Below are positions 37,322 to 49,272 of a stretch of 49,272 nucleotides of DNA, piece by piece (within the stretch, counting starts at the first letter, position 1; every line of letters begins with the position of its first letter). The position numbers were made by a program, and so were the translations under genes. Location of the stretch: NCBI GenBank assembly GCA_018660225.1, contig JABJKT010000186.1, positions 1 to 49,272 on the forward strand. The letters run 5' to 3'. Below the pieces are notes generated by a model that made no database searches, was not told the DNA's origin, and worked only from the letters and a program-made list of their open reading frames with translations. This DNA comes from Kordiimonadaceae bacterium. Its GTDB lineage: Bacteria > Pseudomonadota > Alphaproteobacteria > Sphingomonadales > Emcibacteraceae.

Positions 37322-38038
37322 TTATGCGTTCCTCGTTGATACCAGCGTCCAGTTGGGGTCGCCCCTTTTTACGTCGCGACAAAAGGTCCAGATATCAATG
37401 ACCGGCACTATTTTTTCTGGGTCGCCGTCGATAATCTTTCCATCATCATCTTTTATGGCGATGGTCATATGACTTTTAAAACGTAGCGTCAATTCGGCCA
37501 TGGTGCCGTCAATACTGGCGTCTTCCAGATCAATTTTTTCAATATCATTTAAGATATTTTGAAATTCCTGGCCTTGATCTTTCATATCTTTAATGGCCGT
37601 TTCAAACTGACCAAAGACATCGCGACTTAAAAATGTTCTTAAGGTTTTGGTGTCGCCGGACCAGAAGGCCGTTAAGATCATGCCGTAAGCATATTCGGCA
37701 CCATCAATAAAAATTGGTAAGGTAAAACTATGATCAAAGCTTCTTATTTTATCAAGTGCCGCATAAAAAGGAGATGATTTAGCAACGCCAATATCTTTTC
37801 CTTCGTCAACATATTCCGGTTCTTCATTTTGTGGCGATTGTCCCCCGCGAAGTGGAACAACATTGTCGTCGGCCGCTTTTGTTTCAGGTTTTTGACCATT
37901 ATATGGATTGTCTTGTGACTTTTCATCTTTGCCATCATAACCATCTTTACGGCCAAGGGTTCTGCGAAGTTGCAAAATGATAAACCCGGCAACAAAGGCC
38001 ATGATAATTAAAAAAAGATTGTCAGAATCGTTATTCAT
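37322..38038 (-). CDS. Tim44/TimA domain protein
   Basis: A 238-residue protein with an N-terminal transmembrane segment (LFLIIMAFVAGFIILQLRRTLGRK, split at about residues 8-25 and the basic stop-transfer after it), a charged Pro/Asp/Glu linker (about 35-80) and a C-terminal Tim44-like domain (about 90-235, with DNRMTL-type segments such as FLSRDVFGQFETAIKDM and LVSTRNA). In mitochondria the related Tim44 anchors Hsp70 to the import channel; in bacteria the homologue (TimA) is a membrane protein of unclear role. It is divergent from fxsA (119 bp) and heads the tim44-mltA-smr-HTH set. Confidence 0.88.
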   Translation of the reverse strand: MNNDSDNLFLIIMAFVAGFIILQLRRTLGRKDGYDGKDEKSQDNPYNGQKPETKAADDNVVPLRGGQSPQNEEPEYVDEGKDIGVAKSSPFYAALDKIRSFDHSFTLPIFIDGAEYAYGMILTAFWSGDTKTLRTFLSRDVFGQFETAIKDMKDQGQEFQNILNDIEKIDLEDASIDGTMAELTLRFKSHMTIAIKDDDGKIIDGDPEKIVPVIDIWTFCRDVKRGDPNWTLVSTRNA

Positions 38039-38157
38039 TTATTTTCCTGCTTACGCTTTATTACTGCTCTTCACTTGGCGAATTAATAATTAATACTATA
38101 TTAGATTAAACATGATGTATATATTATGAAACTATATTTCAACAAGTTGGACATTTA

Positions 38158-38640
38158 ATGCCCTTAATATTTTTAGCTGTCATTATAACGGTACCTTATC
38201 TGGAATTCCTAGTCTTTATGAAGGTAGGAGATGAAATAGGTGGTTTTTCAGCATTAATGCTGACCATTTTAACGGCCTTTTTGGGAATTTATATCATTCG
38301 TCAGGAAGGGCTACAAGTTCTTAGCAACCTTAAAAATACCGTTGATCGCGGCGAAAGTCCGGTATCTGGGCTTATCCACGGTTTTTTTCTGGCCGTTGCC
38401 GGCTTTTTCTTTTTATTACCAGGCTTTATAACAGATAGCATCGCTATACTGCTGGCCATTGCCCCTATTCGTGCCGTACTCGGAAAAATGATTGTAGATT
38501 CGGGCCGACACAATTTTACAAATAAGCCGAAATCCACATTTTCCAGCGGCATTATCATTGACGGTGAATTTGAAGAAAGCGATGAGGGCCAAGAAAAAAA
38601 TGAGCCGGGCGCCATTGATCAAGATAAAAAGGATATTTAA
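38158..38640 (+). CDS. fxsA: FxsA family membrane protein
   Basis: A 160-residue inner-membrane protein with the FxsA pattern: two or three hydrophobic segments in the first 100 residues (LIFLAVIITVPYLEFLVFM, FSALMLTILTAFLGIYII, HGFFLAVAGFFFLLPGFITD) separated by KVGDEIGG and GLQVLSNLKNTVDRGE. E. coli FxsA affects F exclusion of phage T7; its normal role is not known. A charged C-terminal tail (from about 125) is variable. It is divergent from the tim44-like gene and upstream of secB, the usual alphaproteobacterial order. Confidence 0.9.
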   Translation: MPLIFLAVIITVPYLEFLVFMKVGDEIGGFSALMLTILTAFLGIYIIRQEGLQVLSNLKNTVDRGESPVSGLIHGFFLAVAGFFFLLPGFITDSIAILLAIAPIRAVLGKMIVDSGRHNFTNKPKSTFSSGIIIDGEFEESDEGQEKNEPGAIDQDKKDI

Positions 38641-38732
38641 CGCTACTTTTGCGCTACAATTGCTTGTGTATATGATAAAAGCATGATAGCAGACATATAA
38701 AATTTGCGTATATAATTTTAGGAATAGACGAG

Positions 38733-39239
38733 ATGTCAGACAATACAGATCAAAACGAAGTTTCAAATGAAGAGAATGAAATTCAAATCACAATCCTCGG
38801 TCAATATATCAAGGACCTTTCATTTGAAAACCCAACGCCAGCCCAAACAATTCAAAAGCTAGCAACAGAAAAGCCAACCATGAGCATTAATGTTAATTTA
38901 AATGCCCAACAAGCGGGTGAAGACATTTATGAGGTTGATCTTAAAATAACCGCCACTGCAAAATCCAATGAAGATACGGCCTTTGTTGCCGAACTACTTT
39001 ATTCTGGACTATTTGGCATTAAAAATCTTCCGGAAGATCAATTACAGCCATTTTTGATGGTTGAAGCCCCTCGTCAAACATTCCCGTTTGCGCGCAGAAT
39101 TCTTTCTGATGTTACACGTGACGGCGGTTTCCCACCATTAATGCTTGAGCCAATTGACTTTGCTAGCCTTTATCATTCTCAACTTCAACAGTCCGCCCAA
39201 GAAGGCGCTGCTTCAGAAGATGATGTTGTGGTAAATTAA
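38733..39239 (+). CDS. secB: Protein-export chaperone SecB
   Basis: Tetrameric chaperone that keeps preproteins unfolded and hands them to SecA. The 168 residues show the SecB core: ILGQYIKDLSFENPTPAQ (about 24-41), VDLKITATAKSNEDTAFVAELLYSGLFGI and APRQTFPFARRILSDVTRDGGFPPLMLEPIDF (about 111-142), plus a short acidic/Gln-rich tail. Its binding site is the SEC-C zinc motif at the C-terminus of SecA, which is duplicated in this genome. A good intrinsic terminator follows at 39266-39292. Confidence 0.97.
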   Translation: MSDNTDQNEVSNEENEIQITILGQYIKDLSFENPTPAQTIQKLATEKPTMSINVNLNAQQAGEDIYEVDLKITATAKSNEDTAFVAELLYSGLFGIKNLPEDQLQPFLMVEAPRQTFPFARRILSDVTRDGGFPPLMLEPIDFASLYHSQLQQSAQEGAASEDDVVVN

Positions 39240-39265
39240 GTTAAAAAATTACTTCAATTTAAATT

Positions 39266-39292
39266 AGGCTCCCAGTTTTGGGGGCCTTTTTT
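39266..39292 (+). terminator. Intrinsic terminator of secB
   Basis: AGGCTCCCA (39266-39274) pairs with TGGGGGCCT (39279-39287) with one G-T wobble around a 4-nt loop and is followed by six T (39287-39292). It lies between the convergent secB and dnaQ genes. The minus strand lacks an equally good T-run after the stem, so it acts mainly on secB. Confidence 0.9.
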
Positions 39293-39301
39293 CATCTAGC
39301 G

Positions 39302-39976
39302 CTACCAAAGTGACTTTTCGATTTTTTTTATAAATTCCTCATGTCTTCCAAGCTCTTCTTCGCTCGGGCTATGGGGGCGGGGTTCCCTGAATGTTTTTTC
39401 AGCGCTCGTTATGGTTTTTATTATTTTGGCCTTATCCTGCTGCGCATCAAGTCCAAGTCCGGTTTGTCTTCCCCCCATCAGCTCGAGATATACCTCCGCG
39501 AGGAGTTCTGCATCAAGCAAAGCACCATGTTTTACACGGTTTGAGTTATCAACAGAAAACCTTTTACAAAGCGCATCAAGAGTATTATTGGCACCGGGAA
39601 ATTTGCGCCTTGCTATTGCGAGGGTGTCAACGGCACGCGTGCCGGGGTAAGGGGAAAACCCAAGATTTTCCATTTCCCAGTTTATAAACTTCATATCAAA
39701 TTCTGCGTTATGAGCGACTAAATTCATATCACCACAAAAATCACGAAACTCACTCACTACTTCACTAAAAACAGGATGATCTTTAAGAAATTCTGCGCTC
39801 AGGCCATGGATGTTTTCGGCAGATTGAGGCATATTCCGCTCTGGATTTACATAACGGTGGAAGCTTTCTCCGGTCGGGATATAATCCTCAACCACAACAC
39901 AGCCTATTTCAACAACACGGTCGCCATTAAAAGGATCAAATCCAGTTGTTTCCGTATCAAAGACCACTTCACGCAT
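39302..39976 (-). CDS. dnaQ: DNA polymerase III epsilon subunit (proofreading exonuclease)
   Basis: 3'-5' exonuclease that proofreads for DNA polymerase III. The 224 residues show Exo I VFDTETTGFDP (about 5-15), Exo II VAHNAEFDMKFINWEM (about 92-107) and Exo III with RVKHGALLDAELLAEVYLELM (about 147-167), the DnaQ-type HxAxxD arrangement. The C-terminal part (from about 180) provides the polymerase-binding tail. It is the last gene of ppsR-aroE-coaE-dnaQ on the minus strand, 1 bp after coaE, near the putative origin. Confidence 0.95.
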   Translation of the reverse strand: MREVVFDTETTGFDPFNGDRVVEIGCVVVEDYIPTGESFHRYVNPERNMPQSAENIHGLSAEFLKDHPVFSEVVSEFRDFCGDMNLVAHNAEFDMKFINWEMENLGFSPYPGTRAVDTLAIARRKFPGANNTLDALCKRFSVDNSNRVKHGALLDAELLAEVYLELMGGRQTGLGLDAQQDKAKIIKTITSAEKTFREPRPHSPSEEELGRHEEFIKKIEKSLW

Positions 39977-39977
39977 A

Positions 39978-40574
39978 TTAATTTTTCCTGAGTTTCTTTA
40001 AAATGTCGTCTACCTGTTTTTCAGCATATTGCAATCCTTCGCCGGTCTCTATAATAAAATCAGCGCGGCCTCTTTTTTCTTCGTCCAGCATTTGCTTTTT
40101 GAGAATTTCCTTAAAACGGTCTTCGGTCATGGCGGGTCGCTCTAACACCCGTTCTTTCTGTATTTCATATGGGGCGCTTACAACAATGCTATAGTCGAGA
40201 TCCGCTTCATATCCTTTTTCAAAAAGAAGCGGGATATCAAATAACACTAGATCGCACTCTGTGTTTCTGGAAAAATCATCCCTTAAGGTTTGGATCATCG
40301 GGTGCAAAATATTTTCAAGTCGCGACAGAGCTTCACTATCATTAAACACTCTTTGCCCTAGAAGTTTCCGGTCGATCTGTTGGTCAATTTTGACGCCGGG
40401 GAAGGTTTTTTCTACCATTTCCACAGCGGCCCCGCTTGGGCCAAGCAATGTATGAGCCGCAGCGTCACTATCAAAAACCGGAATGCCGCGGGCGGCAAAC
40501 ATTTTTGCCGTTTCCGTTTTTCCCATGCCGATAGAACCTGTCAGGCCTATTGTTCTCATTTTGGGAGTTTTCAT
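39978..40574 (-). CDS. coaE: Dephospho-CoA kinase
   Basis: Last step of coenzyme A synthesis: phosphorylates the 3'-hydroxyl of dephospho-CoA. The 198 residues carry the P-loop GLTGSIGMGKTETAKMF (about 9-25), the PVFDSDAAAHTLLGP substrate region, and VLFDIPLLFEKGYEADLDYSIVVSAP. It overlaps aroE by 4 bp upstream and is 1 bp from dnaQ downstream, so all are in one operon. The family length is normal. Confidence 0.96.
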   Translation of the reverse strand: MKTPKMRTIGLTGSIGMGKTETAKMFAARGIPVFDSDAAAHTLLGPSGAAVEMVEKTFPGVKIDQQIDRKLLGQRVFNDSEALSRLENILHPMIQTLRDDFSRNTECDLVLFDIPLLFEKGYEADLDYSIVVSAPYEIQKERVLERPAMTEDRFKEILKKQMLDEEKRGRADFIIETGEGLQYAEKQVDDILKKLRKN

Positions 40575-41416
40575 TTCAGCGCCTCAATTAAATGATTGCG
40601 CAAGGCTTCGTCGACCTCAGGCTCAACACCAAACCAGGCCTTAAAACCAGGCGCCGCCTGATGAAGCAACATGCCAAGGCCGTCAACGGTGGCATTTCCC
40701 CTCGCAGAAGCCTGTTTAAGTAGTTCCGTATCAAGCGGATTATAGACAATGTCATAAACAACCGCATTTTTAGGCAGATTATCCAAATTAAGCTCAAGTT
40801 CTGGCTGCCCTGTCATGCCGAGTGTAGTGACATTTACAAGCAAGGCAGTGTTTTTTAAGGCTTCTTCTCTTTTTGCCCAGGGCACCACTTTTATCCGGCT
40901 GTCGTTCATATCCCCGGCTAGCTTTTCTGCCCGTGATAATGTTCGATTACTTAGTATTATTTCAGGAATGTTTTCCGCCAGAAGGCTGGAGATCGCTGCA
41001 CGTGCAGCACCGCCCGCGCCAATGATCAGGGCCGGGCCATTTTTCGCTGACCAGTTTGGTGCTGCGGATTTTAAATGTTTTAAAAATCCGTATCCATCCG
41101 TATTTGTGCCGATTAATTTTCCGCGCCCATCAAAATAAAGCGTATTTATAGCGCCTATTTTTTTAGCCTGCTCATCCACCTCATCAACTAAAGACATCGC
41201 ATGTTCTTTGTGGGGAACGGTTAAATTTATGCCTTCTATTTTATTGGTCTTTAGGCGCGCAATGAAATCGGGCAGCTCGTTTGTTGCCACATGAAAGGCG
41301 GCATAGTCCCCTTTTATGCCGTATTTCTTAAGCCAATATCCATGTAGCCTGGGTGACAGACTATGAGAAATGGGATTTCCTGCAACCCCGGCTATTTTTA
41401 TTCGACTTTCGCTCAT
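40571..41416 (-). CDS. aroE: Shikimate dehydrogenase
   Basis: NADPH-dependent enzyme that reduces 3-dehydroshikimate to shikimate, the fourth step of the shikimate pathway. The 281 residues show the substrate-binding NPISHSLSPRLHGYWLKKYGI (about 15-35), NLTVPHKE with the catalytic Lys (about 64-71), the Rossmann GAGGAARA and STPLG-like VNVTTLGMTGQPEL segment, and GLGMLLHQAAPGFKAWFG. It overlaps ppsR (4 bp) and coaE (4 bp). In many alphaproteobacteria a maf gene lies between ppsR and aroE; none is present here. Confidence 0.96.
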   Translation of the reverse strand: MSESRIKIAGVAGNPISHSLSPRLHGYWLKKYGIKGDYAAFHVATNELPDFIARLKTNKIEGINLTVPHKEHAMSLVDEVDEQAKKIGAINTLYFDGRGKLIGTNTDGYGFLKHLKSAAPNWSAKNGPALIIGAGGAARAAISSLLAENIPEIILSNRTLSRAEKLAGDMNDSRIKVVPWAKREEALKNTALLVNVTTLGMTGQPELELNLDNLPKNAVVYDIVYNPLDTELLKQASARGNATVDGLGMLLHQAAPGFKAWFGVEPEVDEALRNHLIEALK

Positions 41417-42234
41417 GATGTTTTTTCTTCATGATATTTATTTTTCAAATTTATAATGGCGACCGATGTTTCTTCGATAGAGCGGCGCGTTACATCAACG
41501 GTTGGCCAGCCCATTTTGCTAAATAGTCTTCTTGCTTCTTTTACTTCTTCTTTAACCAGCTCTTCGTCAATATAATCGGTGGTTTTGCTTTCTTTTAAAG
41601 ACAGTAACCGGTTACGGCGAATTTGCACCAGCCGATCGACACTATTGACTAGTCCGACAACAAATTTATCCTTACATTGGTCAAGTTCTGCCGGAATTGG
41701 ACAGCCAGGTACAATGGGAATATTCGCCGCCTTATAACCACGGTTTGCCAGATATATACAGGTCGGTGTTTTTGATGTTCTTGATACACCAACGAGAATA
41801 ATATCCGCATCTGCTAAATTTTCAGCAATTTGCCCATCATCATGAGCCAAGGTATATTGCATAGCATCAATGCGCTCAAAATATTCATCGTCCATCTGAT
41901 GCTGAAGACCAGGCCGTTCTGTCGGTTTTTCATTCAAATGCCTGCCAAGCTCACGGATAATGCCGTGCAATACTGAAATATAAGGCCATTTATGCTTTTT
42001 ACAAGCGTCTATAAGGACCTTTTCAATATCAAGATTAACGAGCGTAAACATGACAATACCAGGGTTTTCTTCCATTTCAGCGATCAGGCGTTCCATATGG
42101 CGAGCCGTTCTGATCATGGGCCAGTAATGTTTGGTCGGGCTGATACCAGGAAACTGTACAAGGGACGCTTTGGCCACTTGTTCGAGGGTATCGCCGGTCG
42201 AATCCGATACGAGATGAAGGTGAATATTTTTCAT
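41413..42234 (-). CDS. ppsR: Pyruvate, phosphate dikinase / PEP synthase regulatory protein (DUF299)
   Basis: Bifunctional kinase/phosphorylase that inactivates and reactivates pyruvate phosphate dikinase or PEP synthase by ADP-dependent phosphorylation of a threonine. The 273 residues show the N-terminal LHLVSDSTGDTLEQVAKASLVQFP (about 5-28) and the diagnostic P-loop-like GVSRTSKTPTCIYLANRGYKAANIP (about 148-172). The target enzyme is not in this window. The gene is the first of the leftward ppsR-aroE-coaE-dnaQ set and borders the putative replication origin, as its homologue does beside Caulobacter and Rickettsia origins (from memory). Confidence 0.94.
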   Translation of the reverse strand: MKNIHLHLVSDSTGDTLEQVAKASLVQFPGISPTKHYWPMIRTARHMERLIAEMEENPGIVMFTLVNLDIEKVLIDACKKHKWPYISVLHGIIRELGRHLNEKPTERPGLQHQMDDEYFERIDAMQYTLAHDDGQIAENLADADIILVGVSRTSKTPTCIYLANRGYKAANIPIVPGCPIPAELDQCKDKFVVGLVNSVDRLVQIRRNRLLSLKESKTTDYIDEELVKEEVKEARRLFSKMGWPTVDVTRRSIEETSVAIINLKNKYHEEKTS

Positions 42235-42324
42235 TTATGCCTTTTTCCATTTTGCATTTTTAAATTGTCTTAATAATGAGGATAAGTCGTTCTTTTTTGC
42301 AATTGCTTTTTTTTAATCCCCGTA

Positions 42325-42371
42325 ATTCATTTTTTATCCATACGTTTTAAACATGTGGATAAAAAATGAAT
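42325..42371. repeat. Perfect 16-nt inverted repeat carrying two DnaA boxes
   Basis: Arm ATTCATTTTTTATCCA (42325-42340) and its exact reverse complement TGGATAAAAAATGAAT (42356-42371) are separated by 15 nt. The repeat contains the DnaA box TTATCCATA on the plus strand (42334-42342, eight of nine) and TGTGGATAA (42354-42362), which is the exact consensus TTATCCACA on the minus strand. The T and A tracts might also let the transcripts terminate, but neither arm is GC-rich. Most likely a paired DnaA-binding site. Confidence 0.75.
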
Positions 42372-42418
42372 AGCAGATTTATAATTTTCATTTCCTAACT
42401 TTAATTCTATCATTTTTG

Positions 42419-42517
42419 TTTTTCACAATATATGTATATGTTTAAATTAATTGTATTTTTTACATGTTAATAACAATTGCAAAACCTGTTAATAAGTTTT
42501 AATCCGCAATATTCACA
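42419..42517. promoter_or_regulatory. Cluster of four additional DnaA-box-like sites
   Basis: TTTTTCACA (42419-42427, plus), ATATTCACA (42509-42517, plus), and TGTTAATAA twice (42465-42473 and 42487-42495, minus, reading TTATTAACA) each match eight of nine positions of TTATNCACA. The two TGTTAATAA copies are exactly repeated and spaced 22 bp centre to centre, two helical turns. In AT-rich DNA such matches arise by chance more often, so they support but do not prove DnaA binding. Confidence 0.5.
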
Positions 42518-42600
42518 GGACCTACTAACCACTACTATATTTATATATAAATATAATATAAGTAAGTATAACGGTGCATAACTTTTAAGAGCTATAAAAA

Positions 42601-43638
42601 ATGGCAAGTGACAAACTATTTATCCAAACATTAAAAGGCAATCAAAAAGACCGTGTCCCTTTCTGGTTCATGAGACAGGCAGGACGGTATCTGCCTGAAT
42701 ATATGGCGCTTAGAAAAGAAGCAGGTTCTTTTTTAGATCTTTGTTACAATTCAGATTTTGCAACTGAAGTAACATTACAGCCAATAAGACGTTTTAACAT
42801 GGATGCGGCGATATTATTTTCAGATATCCTTGTTATTCCGCACGCGCTTGGACAGGATTTGGCTTTCCAAGTAGGTGAAGGGCCTGTTCTGACGCCGGTT
42901 AATAATATAGAAAAGCTTGAAGCCCTTAGTAAAGATAATTTTCATGATCATTTAAATCCTGTTTATCAAACGGTCTCTAATCTTTCTAAAAAATTACCAG
43001 ATCATGTTGCCCTTATTGGCTTTGCTGGCGCACCGTGGACAGTAGCCACTTATATGGTTGGTGGCCGCGGATCAAAAGATCAGGCAGAAACCAGAATAAT
43101 GGCTTATCAGGATAGGGAAACGTTTGAGCAGCTGATAAATTTGTTGGTCGATGTTACATCTGAATATCTAATTCGTCAGGTTGATCACGGTGCAGAAGTG
43201 CTGCAGATTTTTGATAGTTGGTCAGGAAGTCTTCCGGCGGATGAATTTATTAAATGGTGTGTTGAGCCAATGGTAAAAATTGTTCAGAATATCAGGGCCG
43301 TTCATCCGGATGTTCCCATTATCGGTTTTCCAAAAGGCGCCGGGGCAAAAATTAAAAATTATATCAAGAAAACCCGCGTTAATGCCGTTAGTATTGATAC
43401 GTCAACGTCTACATCATGGGTTAGGGATGCGGTCCAGCCACTTTGCACCGTACAGGGTAACCTAGACCCTATTATGTTGGTTCGTGGTGGTGCACCACTC
43501 GAGCGGGCCGTTCATCACATTCTTGACCATTTAAAAGACGGGTCACACATATTTAATTTGGGACATGGTATTATTCCGCAGACCCCGCCGGAAAATGTCA
43601 AAATGGTTTCTGATATTTTATTGTCTTATAGAAGATAA
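42601..43638 (+). CDS. hemE: Uroporphyrinogen decarboxylase
   Basis: Haem-pathway enzyme that converts uroporphyrinogen III to coproporphyrinogen III. The 345 residues show the N-terminal WFMRQAGRYLPEYMALR (about 22-38), ILFSDILVIPHALGQDL, and GFAGAPWTVATYMVGGRGSK (about 139-158), FDSWSGSLP and the C-terminal NLGHGIIPQTPPENV, all family-typical. It starts the hemE-hemH-hemJ set (2 bp before hemH) and lies right beside the putative origin, as in Caulobacter. Confidence 0.97.
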   Translation: MASDKLFIQTLKGNQKDRVPFWFMRQAGRYLPEYMALRKEAGSFLDLCYNSDFATEVTLQPIRRFNMDAAILFSDILVIPHALGQDLAFQVGEGPVLTPVNNIEKLEALSKDNFHDHLNPVYQTVSNLSKKLPDHVALIGFAGAPWTVATYMVGGRGSKDQAETRIMAYQDRETFEQLINLLVDVTSEYLIRQVDHGAEVLQIFDSWSGSLPADEFIKWCVEPMVKIVQNIRAVHPDVPIIGFPKGAGAKIKNYIKKTRVNAVSIDTSTSTSWVRDAVQPLCTVQGNLDPIMLVRGGAPLERAVHHILDHLKDGSHIFNLGHGIIPQTPPENVKMVSDILLSYRR

Positions 43639-43640
43639 AA

Positions 43641-44600
43641 ATGAGCAAAAAAATTGCGGTTGTTATGTTTAATCTTGGCGGTCCGGATTGTCTGGACGCG
43701 GTAAAGCCGTTTTTGTTTAATTTATTTTATGATCCAGCAATTATTACCGTGCCTAACCCTCTGCGTTGGATAATAGCCAAAAGCATTTCAAGCAAAAGAG
43801 CGCCGATAGCACGTGATATTTATCGGGAAATTGGTGGAAAATCACCAATATTGGAACAAACCGAAAAACAGCGTTTAAAACTTGAGAATACTTTAAAGGA
43901 TCTTTCTGATGATGAGTATAAATGCTTTGTTTTTATGCGTTATTGGCACCCTTTTGCAAAAGAAGTAGTTCATGATGTAAAGGATTATGAGCCTGATGAA
44001 ATTATTTTACTGCCGCTTTATCCGCAATATAGTGTGACCACCACGGGAACAGGACTTATTGAATGGAATAAATGGGCTGATAAATTGGCGCTAGTCGCGC
44101 CTTACAGGGTTATTAAAGATTATCCGGACCATGATTTTTTTGTGGGAACCATTGCCGAGCTGATCAGAAAAAAAATTGCTGGATTGAAAGATAAAGCAGA
44201 TTATAGGCTCTTATTATCGGCTCATGGGCTTCCTAAAAAAATCATTGAGGCGGGTGATCCGTATCAAAAACAGGTGGAAATTACCTGCGCGGCATTGACG
44301 AAAGAACTATCAGGTGAAAATCTTGATCACGTGGTTTGCTATCAAAGCCGGGTTGGACCACTCGAATGGATCGGCCCGTCGACGGATGATGAAATTGAAC
44401 GGGCGGCCAAGGACGGCAAAAATATTATCATGGTCCCGGTTGCTTTTGTATCGGAGCATTCAGAAACACTGGTCGAGCTTGATATCGAATATAAAAAGCT
44501 TGCGCAGGACGCTGGGATTGATGATTATATCAGAATTGAAACGGTTTCGAGCCGGCAAAAATTTATCGAAGGACTGGCTAGTCTGGTTTTGAATGTTTAA
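43641..44600 (+). CDS. hemH: Ferrochelatase
   Basis: Inserts ferrous iron into protoporphyrin IX to make protohaem. The 319 residues include VVMFNLGGPDCLDAVKPFLFNLFYDPAII (about 7-35), MRYWHPFAKEVV, LLPLYPQYSVTTTGT, the catalytic-His LLSAHGLPKKIIEAGDPY (about 191-208), and CYQSRVGPLEWIGPSTDDEI; a C-terminal VPVAFVSEHSETLVELDIEY holds the conserved HSET region. It is 2 bp downstream of hemE and 16 bp upstream of hemJ, so one transcript likely encodes three haem steps. Confidence 0.97.
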   Translation: MSKKIAVVMFNLGGPDCLDAVKPFLFNLFYDPAIITVPNPLRWIIAKSISSKRAPIARDIYREIGGKSPILEQTEKQRLKLENTLKDLSDDEYKCFVFMRYWHPFAKEVVHDVKDYEPDEIILLPLYPQYSVTTTGTGLIEWNKWADKLALVAPYRVIKDYPDHDFFVGTIAELIRKKIAGLKDKADYRLLLSAHGLPKKIIEAGDPYQKQVEITCAALTKELSGENLDHVVCYQSRVGPLEWIGPSTDDEIERAAKDGKNIIMVPVAFVSEHSETLVELDIEYKKLAQDAGIDDYIRIETVSSRQKFIEGLASLVLNV

Positions 44601-44616
44601 TAAATTAGGTGATTAA

Positions 44617-45078
44617 GTGTTTGATATATTAGTAGAATTTTTTCAGGAATATTATTACTGGATTTTATCACTTCATATTATTTCAGTGATAAGCTGGATG
44701 GCTGGTATGTTTTATCTACCGCGGCTTTTTGTATATCATACCCGTCTTGACGTTGGTTCAAAAGCTTCTGAGATGTTCAAGGAAATGGAAAGAAAACTGC
44801 TGCGTATGATAATAAATCCTGCAATGTGCGCGACGTGGATTTTTGGTCTTGCTTTATCCTTTGGTCAGGATAGTTGGCATGCGGGTGGTTGGTTTTATAT
44901 TAAATTTTCTGCAGTAATTATTTTATCTGGATTTCACGGATATTTATCAAAATGGCGAAAGGCCTTTGAACGTGATGAAAATCCCCATAATGAAAAATAT
45001 TTTCGCATGATGAATGAAGTTCCGACCGTATTAATGATGATTATTGTCTTTATGGTTTTTCTAAAGCCGTTTTCTTAA
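44617..45078 (+). CDS. hemJ: Protoporphyrinogen oxidase HemJ
   Basis: Membrane-bound enzyme that oxidises protoporphyrinogen IX and replaces HemG/HemY in most alphaproteobacteria. The 153 residues form four or five transmembrane helices; WILSLHIISVISWMAGMFYLPRLFVYH (about 13-39) holds the conserved histidine that ligates haem b, and WFYIKFSAVIILSGFHGYLSKWRKAF (about 90-115) is the other signature. The start is GTG at 44617 with AGGTG just upstream. It acts between hemE and hemH in the pathway but is encoded after both here. Confidence 0.92.
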   Translation: MFDILVEFFQEYYYWILSLHIISVISWMAGMFYLPRLFVYHTRLDVGSKASEMFKEMERKLLRMIINPAMCATWIFGLALSFGQDSWHAGGWFYIKFSAVIILSGFHGYLSKWRKAFERDENPHNEKYFRMMNEVPTVLMMIIVFMVFLKPFS

Positions 45079-45092
45079 TTTAAAAATCCTGA

Positions 45093-45251
45093 TTGCTAAT
45101 TTGATAAACTAGAGTATAATCATCCCACTGTCGTTCATCTGTAACGATAATAATTCCTTTTTATAATCAATTTCTTGAAATTTTATTTTAAATATCACCT
45201 ATTTTTCAATTACTTATCAAAACACCTACTTAAACCACTTGGACATCTCCT
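45093..45251 (+). promoter_or_regulatory. rho promoter and G-poor, rut-like leader
   Basis: TTGCTA (45093-45098), 16 bp, and a perfect TATAAT (45115-45120) make a good promoter ahead of rho, implying a leader of about 125 nt. From 45121 to 45251 the sense strand has 30 C and only 7 G, and 45178-45240 contains no G in 63 nt. Such C-over-G, unstructured RNA is the classical profile of a Rho-utilisation site, and E. coli rho is autoregulated by Rho-dependent attenuation in its leader. Similar control is inferred. Confidence 0.5.
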
Positions 45252-46508
45252 ATGAATTTATTGGATCTTAAAAAGAAAGCTCCCGCAGAGCTTTTAGATT
45301 TAGCCGAAGAAAATAACGTCGAGAATGCAAGCAACATGCGCAAACAAGATATGATGTTTGCTATTTTAAAAGCCTTTGCTGCGCGAATTGAAGAAATATC
45401 AGGAGGCGGGGTTGTTGAAGTTCTGCAGGACGGTTTTGGCTTTCTAAGATCGCCCGAATCAAATTATCTTCCAGGTCCTGATGATATTTATGTCAGTCCA
45501 AGCCAGATTAAGCGTTTTGGGCTTCGCACCGGGGATACGGTTGAAGGACTAATTAGATCACCAAAAGACGGTGAGCGGTATTTTGCCCTTCTAAAGGTTT
45601 CACAGGTAAATTACAAAGATCCAGACGTGAGTAAACATAAGGTTCATTTTGATAGTTTGACGCCGCTTCATCCGGACCGGAAATTTACCCTTGATCGCAA
45701 GGACCCAGATAATAAAGATAATTCGACACGGGTCATTGATTTGGTAGCGCCGATTGGTTTTGGTCAGCGCGGTGTAATTGTAGCACCGCCAAGAACTGGT
45801 AAAACGGTTCTAATGCAAAATGTTGCCCACGCCATTAAAGAAAATCATCCGGATGTATTTTTAATCGTGTTGCTTATTGATGAGCGACCGGAAGAGGTGA
45901 CGGATATGCGCCGTTCTGTTCATGGTGAAGTTGTAAGTTCTACGTTTGATGAGCCGGCAACGCGTCACGTACAAGTGTCAGAAATGGTTATTGAAAAAGC
46001 AAAAAGGCTAGTCGAAAATAAATATGACGTTGTCATTCTTCTTGATAGTATTACCCGTCTTGCGCGTGCTTATAATACGGTAATTCCAAGCTCTGGTAAG
46101 GTGCTTACCGGCGGTGTTGACGCTAATGCACTTCAGCGACCTAAACGCTTTTTCGGTGCGGCGCGTAATATTGAAGAAGGTGGCTCGCTGACCATTATAG
46201 CAACCGCCCTTATTGATACGGGTAGCCGGATGGATGAGGTTATTTTTGAAGAATTTAAAGGCACGGGTAACTCTGAAATTGTTCTTGACCGTAAGGTAAG
46301 TGATAAACGGATATTCCCGGCTATTGATATTACTAAATCAGGGACACGTAAAGAAGAGCTGCTACTTGATCCGGGTACGTTAGCGAAAATGTATGTACTA
46401 AGGCGTATATTAATGCCGATGGGATCGGTTGATGCGATTGAGTTCTTGCTCAATAAGCTCAAAGAAACAGAAGATAATGTAGAATTTTATAATTCTATGA
46501 ATAACTAA
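45252..46508 (+). CDS. rho: Transcription termination factor Rho
   Basis: Hexameric RNA-dependent ATPase that ends untranslated transcripts. The 418 residues show the N-terminal helical region, the OSB-fold RNA-binding domain (about 48-120, [35 protein letters not shown]), the Walker A in [20 protein letters not shown] (about 175-194) and Walker [17 protein letters not shown]. The Q-loop and R-loop regions are intact ([40 protein letters not shown]). Length matches family. Upstream is a C-rich leader; a strong intrinsic terminator follows. Confidence 0.98.
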
Positions 46509-46617: not shown

Positions 46618-48081
46618 ATGTCAGATAAAACCGTGCGCGAACCGAGCCTGATTGACGCCCTTATCCCCGTAATAGCATTGGTTAGTATGTTATCACTATC
46701 CGTTTATTTATATGGTGATGGTTCATCAAGCGGCGCTAACCAGATCGCGCTGATTTTGGCGAGCTGTGTGGCACTGATTATTGGCGTAAAAAATGGCTAT
46801 AATTGGCGTGAAATTGAAAAGGCTGTATCGCAGGGAATTGCCAACACCTTTGGCGCTATACTTATCTTAATGGTTGTGGGGATGTTGATCGGTTCATGGA
46901 TACTTTCCGGTACGGTTCCGGCGATGATTTACTATGGACTTCAAATTATTAATCCGACTATTTTCTATTTTACGGCTTGTATATTAAGTGCCATTGCCGC
47001 GATCAGTATTGGTAGCAGCTGGACGGTTGCAAGTACGATTGGTATTGGTCTTATGGGAATTGCAGCGGGGCTCGGTTTAGAGCCTGAAATTACTGCTGGT
47101 GCTATTATTTCAGGGGCTTATTTTGGTGATAAGATGTCGCCGCTTTCAGACACTACTAATCTTGCGCCAGCGGTGGCGGGGACTGATTTATTTACTCATA
47201 TCAGCCATATGACCTGGACGACTATTCCGTCTATATCAATTGCCGTTATTCTTTATCTTATTATCGGGTTGACCAGTGATATCAACACGGATAATATTGA
47301 TATTAGTGATCAACTTTTATTAATAGAAAGCAATTTTAATATTGGTGTTTATCTGCTGCTTCCGCTTGTGATTGTATTTATATTGGCTGTTAAAAAGAAT
47401 CCGGCATTTCCGACGCTTGTTATTGGCACGATGGTTGGTGTTGTTATGGCTGTTACTTTTCAACAGGATGTTATTTTTAAATTTGCCGGTGCAAATGACA
47501 GAATGGACGTGATTATTTTATTAGATGGCATCTGGCAGTCGCTTTTTGCCGGTTATACAGCAAATACGGGTGATGCCAGTATGGATGAGCTTCTTAGCCA
47601 GGGCGGGATGGCCGGTATGCTTGATACGATCTGGCTGGTTATGTGTGCGATTACCTTTGGTTCAATTCTGGAGAAACTGGGTCTTTTAAAGCGGCTGGTT
47701 ATGGGAATGATTGAAATGGCCCAAACCACAGGCTCACTTATTCTGGTTACAGCCCTGACGTGTATTGGGGTTAATATATTAGCGGCTGACCAATATATCG
47801 CTATTGTGCTTCCGGGCCGTATGTACCGGTTAGAATTTAAAAGACGTAAACTGGCGGCAAAGAACTTGTCACGGGTGCTTGAGGATACGGGGACGGTGAC
47901 GTCGGTGCTTGTGCCGTGGAATACGTGCGGTGCATTTTTCTCAAGTACGCTCGGGATTGCGACTTTTGCTTATGCGCCCTATTGCTTCTTTAATATTATC
48001 AGCCCGTTCATTTCAGTTTTTTATGGAATGTATAATATTAAGATCGCGCCTATTAATCCTGATGAGGTTCTTGCGGAGTAA
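46618..48081 (+). CDS. nhaC: NhaC-type sodium/proton antiporter
   Basis: A 487-residue integral membrane protein with about eleven hydrophobic segments. Family marks are SAIAAISIGSSWTVASTIGIGLMGIAAGLGL (about 121-151), AGAIISGAYFGDKMSPLSDTTNLAPAVAGTDLFTHI (about 160-195) and the C-terminal WNTCGAFFSSTLGIATFAYAPYCFFNIISP, all NhaC signatures. NhaC exchanges sodium for protons and supports pH and salt tolerance. It is inserted between rho and mnmE, which are usually adjacent in alphaproteobacteria, and stands alone with a short AT-rich upstream gap. Sodium dependence suggests a marine or saline habitat, but that is a weak inference. Confidence 0.93.
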   Translation: MSDKTVREPSLIDALIPVIALVSMLSLSVYLYGDGSSSGANQIALILASCVALIIGVKNGYNWREIEKAVSQGIANTFGAILILMVVGMLIGSWILSGTVPAMIYYGLQIINPTIFYFTACILSAIAAISIGSSWTVASTIGIGLMGIAAGLGLEPEITAGAIISGAYFGDKMSPLSDTTNLAPAVAGTDLFTHISHMTWTTIPSISIAVILYLIIGLTSDINTDNIDISDQLLLIESNFNIGVYLLLPLVIVFILAVKKNPAFPTLVIGTMVGVVMAVTFQQDVIFKFAGANDRMDVIILLDGIWQSLFAGYTANTGDASMDELLSQGGMAGMLDTIWLVMCAITFGSILEKLGLLKRLVMGMIEMAQTTGSLILVTALTCIGVNILAADQYIAIVLPGRMYRLEFKRRKLAAKNLSRVLEDTGTVTSVLVPWNTCGAFFSSTLGIATFAYAPYCFFNIISPFISVFYGMYNIKIAPINPDEVLAE

Positions 48082-48093
48082 TTCGCCTTCACG

Positions 48094-48561
48094 TTAAAAA
48101 GGAAGCTTTAGATTATCATCGGTTTCTTCGAGATCGAGCAGATATCTTTTTGTCTCTATTCCTTCGCCGCCGGAAAATCCGGTCAGCTTGCCATCTTTGC
48201 CGAGTACCCGGTGGCATGGAATGATGATCGGGATTGGATTTTGTCCGCAGGCCATGCCGACGGCACGGGCATGAGAATTTAACCGGTTAGAAATTTCACC
48301 GTATGTTAAAAATTTGCCGTAAGGAATATCGAGCATGATGTTCCAGACATTTTTTTGAAATTTTGTTCCATGTGGATTTAGCGGCAAATCAAAAGTTGGG
48401 TTTTCACCGTCGAAATATTGGTCGAGCAAATTTTTTGCGCGCCGTAAAATTTCATTTTCTGCGCTGAGGGGTGACCATCCCCAATCGAGAGAAACGATTT
48501 TTCCATCCTCTTCACTGATGGTGAGGTCGCCGATTGGGCTGTGAACCGATAGTTGTGACAT
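48094..48561 (-). CDS. ogt: Methylated-DNA-protein-cysteine S-methyltransferase
   Basis: Suicidal DNA-repair protein that removes alkyl groups from O6-alkylguanine. The 155 residues end with the active-site motif IIIPCHRVLGKDGKLTGFSGGEGIETKRYLL, with the acceptor Cys in PCHR (about 119), preceded by the HTH FQKNVWNIMLDIPYGKFLTYGEISNRL. This is the small Ogt/MGMT form without an Ada regulatory domain. It is convergent with nhaC (12 bp) and has 286 bp before mnmE. Confidence 0.95.
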   Translation of the reverse strand: MSQLSVHSPIGDLTISEEDGKIVSLDWGWSPLSAENEILRRAKNLLDQYFDGENPTFDLPLNPHGTKFQKNVWNIMLDIPYGKFLTYGEISNRLNSHARAVGMACGQNPIPIIIPCHRVLGKDGKLTGFSGGEGIETKRYLLDLEETDDNLKLPF

Positions 48562-48847: not shown

Positions 48848-49272
48848 ATGACAATTTTTGCATTATCAAGTGGTAAGGGTCGGGCCGGCGTGAGCGTGAT
48901 CAGAATTTCTGGTCCCGAGACCTTTTCTGCTATTTTGACATTGACCAAAAATGCAAAAAAACCTGATCCTCGCTGTGCCGTTCTTAGCTGGTTTTATGAC
49001 CCGCTGACAAATGAAAAACTTGACCAAGGATTGGTGATTTTTTTCCCCGGACCGAATAGTTTTACCGGTGAAGATGTGGCCGAATTTCATATTCATGGTG
49101 GCTATGCCGTGGTCGCTGGTTTTTTGGAAGCGCTGTCAAAATTACCAAATTTACGATCTGCAGAAGCGGGTGAATTTACCCGCCGCGCATTTGATAATGG
49201 TAAAATGGATCTGACATCTGCCGAGGGGCTAGCAGATTTAATCAATGCGGAGACGGCGGGTCAAAAAAGACA
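48848..49272 (+). CDS. mnmE: tRNA modification GTPase MnmE (N-terminal part, incomplete)
   Basis: Forms, with MnmG, the enzyme that makes 5-carboxymethylaminomethyl-uridine at the wobble base of certain tRNAs. The first 141 residues from ATG at 48848 show the TrmE N-domain: [20 protein letters not shown] (about 4-23), [25 protein letters not shown] (about 72-96), [27 protein letters not shown]. The GTPase domain lies beyond the right edge. It commonly follows rho in alphaproteobacteria, and continues to gidA/mnmG, rsmG and parAB in that order. Confidence 0.96.

Follow-up and report, generated by a model that had tools for sequence, protein, structure and literature searches.

A Probable Replication Origin of the hemE/COG1806 Type with Candidate Variant DnaA-Trios in a Kordiimonadaceae Bacterium

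Results

We analyzed a stretch of 49,272 nucleotides (hereafter the window) from the draft genome of a Kordiimonadaceae bacterium, in which a gap of 366 bp (positions 42235-42600; 77% A+T) separates the genes ppsR and hemE. The left boundary gene (41413-42234, minus strand) encodes a kinase-pyrophosphorylase of COG1806 (PF03618; E = 1.7e-93), and we use the name ppsR in what we take to be its PEP synthase regulator sense, as distinct from the photosynthesis repressor of the same name. The right boundary gene, hemE (42601-43638, plus strand), was identified from its open reading frame and its URO-D domain (PF01208; E = 9.9e-115). A preliminary description of this DNA had proposed the gap as a chromosomal replication origin with genes diverging on both sides, and the domain assignments agree with this layout: divergent hemE and COG1806 genes flanking the gap, as in origins of the hemE/COG1806 type. 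PpsR-like residues were found within the 40 residues shown upstream of hemE in 27 of 30 loci of the order, and two of the three other loci lie near contig ends. By a strict motif, ppsR was found beside hemE in only 54 of 80 named alphaproteobacterial loci. Farther to the right, between rho and mnmE, positions 46618-48561 hold by eye an NhaC-type antiporter-like open reading frame and, on the opposite strand, an Ogt-type methyltransferase-like one; mnmE itself (TrmE N-terminal domain; 48848-49272) runs off the end of the contig.

The genome of the window is a draft of 219 contigs, and we therefore relied on closed relatives for GC skew and for distances to parS. One of them (G012) belongs to the same genus and consists of one contig of 3,369,470 bp, with a HemE that is 85% identical, a hemE start at 3289207 and dnaA at position 67. 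We sampled 51 stretches of this genome (997 kb in total) and observed that GC skew was positive in all 23 stretches from 0 to 1.616 Mb, negative in 22 of 23 stretches from 1.68 to 3.28 Mb and positive again in all five stretches from 3.28 Mb to the end. The minimum of the cumulative skew fell at position 3288717, within 257 kb read unbroken around the end of the record. This position is 141 bp outside the ppsR-hemE gap (3288858-3289206), 490 bp before the start of hemE and 80 kb from dnaA. The same pattern was observed in a closed genome from another genus of the family (G014; 20 stretches, 400 kb), where the minimum (4099335, within 180 kb read unbroken) lies 240 bp inside hemE (start at 4099095). 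The preliminary description had named a skew minimum near the gap as the first thing to look for: the closed genome of the same genus places it within 0.5 kb of the junction, and the second closed genome of the family agrees. The GC-skew switch of hemE/COG1806-type origins is thus present in both sampled relatives and also locally in the window, whose own cumulative minimum is at 42663. The strand counts of GGGNAGGG, which we take to be a KOPS-like motif, are in agreement with an origin at hemE, with plus-to-minus ratios of 31:2, 6:19 and 4:0 in the sampled stretches of the three successive segments of G012. As a separate observation, one stretch of this genome located 37-57 kb to the left of the origin (G012:C1:3232001-3252000; L163) presents a G+C content of 33%, against 42-44% in its neighbors, and a partly flat cumulative skew; it is perhaps an island.

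With a consensus that we presume to be that of parS, we found parS 5.9-10.0 kb from the start of hemE, on the downstream side, in all five single-contig genomes (G012, G014, G015, G021 and G022). If these contigs are circular, the distance from dnaA to hemE in the five genomes is about 80, 90, 330, 438 and 1170 kb. The contig of the window stops a few kb before the place where relatives carry parS, and the single parS found in its genome (G000) is on another contig (C39:1310). In G022, parS is 5.9 kb from hemE and dnaA about 1.17 Mb away, which indicates that numbering this chromosome from dnaA probably does not mark its origin.

These distances weigh on the reading of the gap as only a two-way promoter for ppsR and hemE, with transcription under DnaA control and the origin at dnaA or elsewhere. 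The two genes do diverge from the gap, four of the relatives (G012, G014, G021 and G022) are numbered from dnaA, and a promoter-like TTCACA-18-TATATT at 42512-42541 overlaps one of the DnaA boxes described below (direct box 2), although such matches are not above shuffles (4 against a mean of 2.9). However, the skew minimum and parS of the closed genomes are found at hemE and not at dnaA, as G022 illustrates for parS, and a promoter leaves unexplained a three-base period of C that we describe below in loci of seven of eight families. We regard this reading as highly improbable. Three independent markers, namely GC skew, parS and the profile of a conserved core (see below), point to an origin at the hemE junction, and the origin proposed in the preliminary description is supported by the skew minimum of the relatives and by the position of parS. 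The gap 42235-42600 is very probably the chromosomal replication origin (oriC).

We then examined the DnaA boxes of the gap. Allowing one mismatch, we counted three boxes, and allowing two, nine, and none of 2,000 dinucleotide shuffles of the gap reached either count; such a cluster of DnaA boxes in AT-rich DNA is a mark of the hemE/COG1806 type. When frames of 366 nt were moved along the window in steps of 25 nt, the frame starting at 42276 was the richest in boxes with no or one mismatch: it contains four, including one at the very beginning of hemE. The gene junction, the skew and the boxes together identify this as a hemE/COG1806 origin. On the ppsR side, the box TTATCCTCA (42277-42285, minus strand) corresponds to a site G[AG]GGATAA present in all 12 same-genus loci that reach it. 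Two further boxes, TTATCCATA with one mismatch (42334-42342, plus strand) and an exact TTATCCACA (42354-42362, minus strand), are located in a perfect 16-nt inverted repeat (arms 42325-42340 and 42356-42371), the second of them in the right arm. A weak box, TTATTAACA, follows at 42465-42473 (minus strand). Besides the two boxes of the repeat, the preliminary description had counted four more box-like sites, which is too low since seven further sites have at most two mismatches. The exact TTATCCACA occurs 26 times on the forward and 11 times on the reverse strand of the genome of the window, and the reversed motif 8 and 8 times; contig orientation is arbitrary, so the 26:11 ratio may mean nothing.

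The inverted repeat, with its exact and one-mismatch boxes, is real: no repeat of 16 nt with a loop of at most 20 was reached in 500 dinucleotide shuffles of the gap. It could be seen as the working center of the origin, as a hairpin or a paired DnaA site, and as single-stranded DNA it folds far better than shuffled sequences (-14.3 kcal/mol; z = -8.1). However, it is missing from the 12 other same-genus loci, in which perfect inverted repeats with loops of up to 20 nt do not exceed 9 nt over the 420 nt preceding hemE (one locus, L007, comprises only 181 nt). This role is therefore very unlikely, and we rejected the repeat as the center of the origin. By our reading of the alignment, 8 of the 12 same-genus loci that can be aligned at the right-arm box (42354-42362), counting the window, carry this box with no more than one mismatch. 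The preliminary description was thus upheld in its call of an origin while resting it on the wrong landmark. A second mark that it had named, an A/T run of 26 nt (42536-42561), is present in the gap but is within chance when taken alone, as 330 of 2,000 shuffles reach it. A hairpin formed by this AT-rich element was also considered and rejected, its folding being no better than that of shuffles (z = 0.16). Positions 38000-46000 gave no Rfam match at the gathering score that would indicate a structured RNA.

The alignment of 13 same-genus loci revealed that conservation is found above all in the 110 bp next to hemE. Aligning the gap across related genomes had been suggested in the preliminary description, which did not single out this segment; the segment is kept among relatives, in contrast to the 16-nt repeat, which is not shared. 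In the window, the conserved core (42486-42595, plus strand, as matched by the profile R1 described below) starts with an inverted box, here again TTATTAACA (42487-42495, minus strand). Direct box 1, TAATCCGCA (42500-42508), and direct box 2, ATATTCACA (42509-42517), are both on the plus strand with two mismatches; they abut each other and are followed by GG. Next come the C-anchored trinucleotides CTA CTA A CCA CTA CTA (42522-42537, plus strand), which we interpret as variant DnaA-trios whose bound strand would be the minus strand, and the 26-nt A/T element (42536-42561), which we propose as the unwinding element. On the minus strand, the four trios TTA CTT ATA TTA (42554-42565) and, beyond the AT element, an inward-facing DnaA box, TTATGCACC (42573-42581), complete the core. 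Across 30 loci of the family, the leftmost part of the core is an inverted box that resembles TGTGGATAA or TGGGGATAA; after a short interval (4 nt in the window) come a direct box TAATCC-CA and, immediately next to it, a second direct box similar to TTATTCACA. These are followed by GG, a spacer, the C-anchored trinucleotides and the AT-rich element, after which AGTA or TAGTAG leads to a last inverted box, GTGNATAAC. The arrangement of three boxes was found in 26 of the 30 family loci and in 25 of 51 other loci of the order, against 4 matches at about 23,000 other positions, with anchors picked by a score that rewards both boxes and the period of C.

A profile (R1) was built from the sequences of the 30 family loci alone and searched against 15 whole genomes. 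Its best match was located directly upstream of hemE in 13 of them (E = 4e-22 to 3e-5), and matches elsewhere in the genomes had E values of 0.04 or weaker; at most 150 candidates were scored per genome, so that weak copies may have escaped. Five of the 15 genomes had contributed to the profile; among the other ten, eight were matched, and G022 and G023 gave no match. We further searched R1 in 78 named alphaproteobacterial loci. At E values of 0.01 or better, 23 of these were matched on the plus strand, all with a start 78-270 nt upstream of hemE, including records titled Sneathiella, Parvibaculaceae, Rhodospirillaceae and Rhodobacteraceae. The remaining 55 gave no match at this threshold, and no record titled Mesorhizobium or Bradyrhizobium among the 78 was matched up to E = 10. 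The strand-composition switch, the closeness of parS, the clustering of DnaA boxes and the uniqueness and conservation of the core can all be read from the sequences themselves.

We analyzed the trinucleotides with an anchor, [TCA]CA[CT]A[GC][GC], that is blind to the downstream sequence, since a score based on boxes and the period of C would be circular. On the plus strand, counting from the box, C occupies positions +10, +13 and +16 in all 13 same-genus loci and in all 16 anchored loci of the other members of the family (one of 17 was not anchored). Positions +12, +15 and +18 are A in 69-100% of these loci, and the middle bases vary (at +11 in the genus: A 0.62, C 0.31 and T 0.08). In the rest of the order, where 39 of 51 loci were anchored, C peaks at +10, +13, +16 and +19 with frequencies of 0.56, 0.59, 0.69 and 0.54. 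A box followed by at least three C-anchored trinucleotides was found in 27 of the 30 family loci and in 41 of the 51 other loci of the order (10% and 12% in shuffles), compared to 0 and 7 on the other strand. A box followed by at least four CNN without G was found in 19/30 loci of the family, 28/51 of the order and 18/78 of the other named loci (1-2% in shuffles), compared to 0, 2 and 2 on the other strand. The run of the window itself consists of three (CCA CTA CTA). Family by family, runs of at least three were observed in 27/30 (f1), 5/5 (f2), 0/1 (f3), 2/4 (f4), 19/21 (f5), 10/14 (f6), 3/4 (f7) and 2/2 loci (f8), so that a run of three was absent from only one of the eight families, which is represented by a single locus.

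When weighted by genus and counted with C first and no G, the most frequent trinucleotides are CAA (34%), CTA (23%), CCA (15%) and CAT (10%), from the 24 of 34 genera having a run. The strand that DnaA would bind reads mostly 3'-GNT-5': the guanine is kept, the third base is mostly T, and A, T or G stands in the middle. The published rule to search for the basal unwinding system (BUS) of bacterial origins asks for three consecutive trios 3'-NAN-5' (PMC8287927). On the plus strand of the window, only two such trios were found; with our own version of the rule, three were reached in 16 of the 30 family loci, 24 of the 51 other loci of the order and 19 of the 78 named loci. The left-hand module presents the other element of a BUS, a DnaA box that deviates at two positions or fewer and is located no more than 16 nt from the trinucleotides, here in tandem (42500-42508 and 42509-42517). 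The left-hand module is probably a variant that keeps the layout of a BUS, deviates from the published trio rule and works like a BUS.

Opening of the origin by such G-anchored trios appears likely from the sequence. Deviant trios, for instance without the middle adenine, are suspected by the authors of the published survey (PMC8287927). In the structure from Bacillus subtilis, the first two bases of the trio, G and A, are captured, and origins whose trios carry G or T instead of the middle A open less well in vitro and initiate less well in vivo (PMC10721633), so that opening through trios with a middle T or G is something that we infer. According to the same source, Asn187 and Glu183 contact the A of the trio and Arg202 contacts the G. 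The DnaA of the genome of the window keeps Glu183, Asn187, Ile190, Lys222 and Glu228 of the trio-binding residues of B. subtilis, and it carries four substitutions: Arg202 to Lys, Ile193 to Met, Asn196 to Arg and Glu223 to Asn. A broader possibility underlies the two-sided reading of the core described below: in many alphaproteobacteria, origins may rely on trios that are anchored on G and have no fixed adenine in the middle, the deviant kind suspected by Pelliciari et al. The titles and abstracts returned by our literature search mention no DnaA-trios in alphaproteobacterial origins, which says little because the search misses most subscription journals and because the survey of 2070 species (PMC8287927), whose tree marks the five classes of Proteobacteria, must include alphaproteobacteria.

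The far side of the core raises the possibility that origins of this family are two-sided. The inward-facing box (42573-42581) would read the trios of the other strand (42554-42565) into the same AT-rich element that the G-anchored module enters from the left, and DnaA entering from both sides would mark one strand each for the helicase. In the window, four trios of the published kind are read on the minus strand from TTATGCACC, after a spacer of 7 nt. A reverse-strand box with at most two mismatches was found on this side in 27 of the 30 family loci (1 on the forward strand; 2.0 in shuffles), GTGNATAA was found in 25 of the 30, and at least four far-side trios were present in 25 of the 30, where shuffling of the AT element alone gives an expectation of 11.2. 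In addition, R1 also finds the reverse strand of the same site in 7 of the 13 matched genomes, mostly as a weak match (E = 5.5e-4 to 0.5), and in two of the named loci (L033 and L034; E = 0.0009 and 0.0019). However, 51 of 500 shuffles of the gap of the window reach four trios on the minus strand, so that the far-side trios are weak in the window alone. The AT palindrome by itself also gives some opposite-strand score, and the far-side box could belong to hemE transcription. Elsewhere in the order, we saw no clear enrichment of the box (7 of 49 loci; 4.8 expected) or of runs of at least three trios (6 of 51; 3.1 expected). The TAGT/GTAG edge is found above its reverse complement but not above genus-weighted dinucleotide shuffles (17.27 against a mean of 14.70 and a largest value of 19.47), and we do not claim it outside the family for this reason. 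We consider two-sided origins, with a G-anchored-trio module and an inward box with canonical trios sharing one AT-rich element, as a tentative possibility that we keep for this family only.

A strict application of the published trio rule would assign the unwinding module to the right of the element, the only side on which the window has three or more such trios in a row. The module would then be made of the far-side box and its four canonical trios, and the C-anchored repeat on the left would be used otherwise. This appears quite unlikely: the right-side trios of the window are at the chance level given above, and the left-hand boxes and repeat reach beyond the family while the right-hand box does not.

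Discussion

Taken as a whole, the locus is best explained, with a probability that we estimate at about 0.85, as an oriC of the hemE/COG1806 type that DnaA would open through C-anchored trinucleotides. The place of this candidate origin, the uniqueness and conservation of its core and the order of its elements are observed, and DnaA binding, opening and helicase loading are what this order of elements leads us to propose. The outer boxes (42277, 42354 and 42465) would gather DnaA, which would bind the three-box unit (42487-42517). Extending from direct box 2 and past GG, DnaA would reach the minus strand at the C-anchored trinucleotides (42522-42537), and it would stretch and capture this strand. 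The AT-rich element (42536-42561) would thereby open, and the helicase would be loaded there. The conserved core suggests a variant of the known mode by which DnaA opens origins.

The existence of trios without the middle adenine is left open by the authors of the survey (PMC8287927). A core of 110 bp with G-anchored trios in many alphaproteobacteria would make this question testable with purified DnaA and short scaffolds. Similarly, the loading of two helicases, one per strand, at one bacterial origin has been called unclear (PMC10201434), and the inward second box found in one family would make it testable likewise. If the two-sided core is true, the marking of both strands for the helicase would fall to DnaA itself. 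Finally, the core profile may serve as a simple origin finder for draft genomes in which dnaA is far away.

The gap contains no perfect CtrA site (TTAA-N7-TTAA), no GANTC and no match to the IHF consensus, for which we used a motif that we take to be the correct one. A CtrA-like site with one mismatch lies at 42259; the window has 68 sites of this kind, compared to 52 expected. These results bear on the similarity between this locus and the best known origins of the type. By their published description (PMC1914354), Cori of Caulobacter crescentus (404 bp) and oriC of Rickettsia prowazekii (384 bp) are gaps with the same boundary genes, DnaA boxes and a raised A+T content. The window resembles both in boundary genes, gap size, DnaA boxes and A+T content, and the gene junction (PF03618 and URO-D) is indeed the one that the preliminary description had named for these two species, Caulobacter having a proven origin there. 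An origin like Cori in the strict sense, gated by CtrA, shares the junction, AT-richness and DnaA boxes with the window (PMC1914354) but is unlikely in view of the sites counted above, and control through CtrA, IHF or GANTC was rejected for want of perfect sites in the gap. The same source describes CtrA and IHF sites as not present in all members of the hemE/COG1806 type.

The closest mechanistic parallel that we draw is with the BUS of B. subtilis, which the core resembles by its tandem DnaA boxes, short spacer and run of trinucleotides next to AT-rich DNA; of the trio-binding residues, the DnaA keeps several and replaces others. The core differs from the BUS by an inverted box ahead of the tandem pair and, on the side of the conserved boxes, by trios in which G and, for the most part, T are retained (3'-GNT-5') and the middle base is free. 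The far side recalls the DnaD recognition element located opposite the trios of B. subtilis, an element proposed for the second strand (PMC10201434); unlike that element, the candidate described here is another DnaA box, situated beyond the AT element and found in one family.
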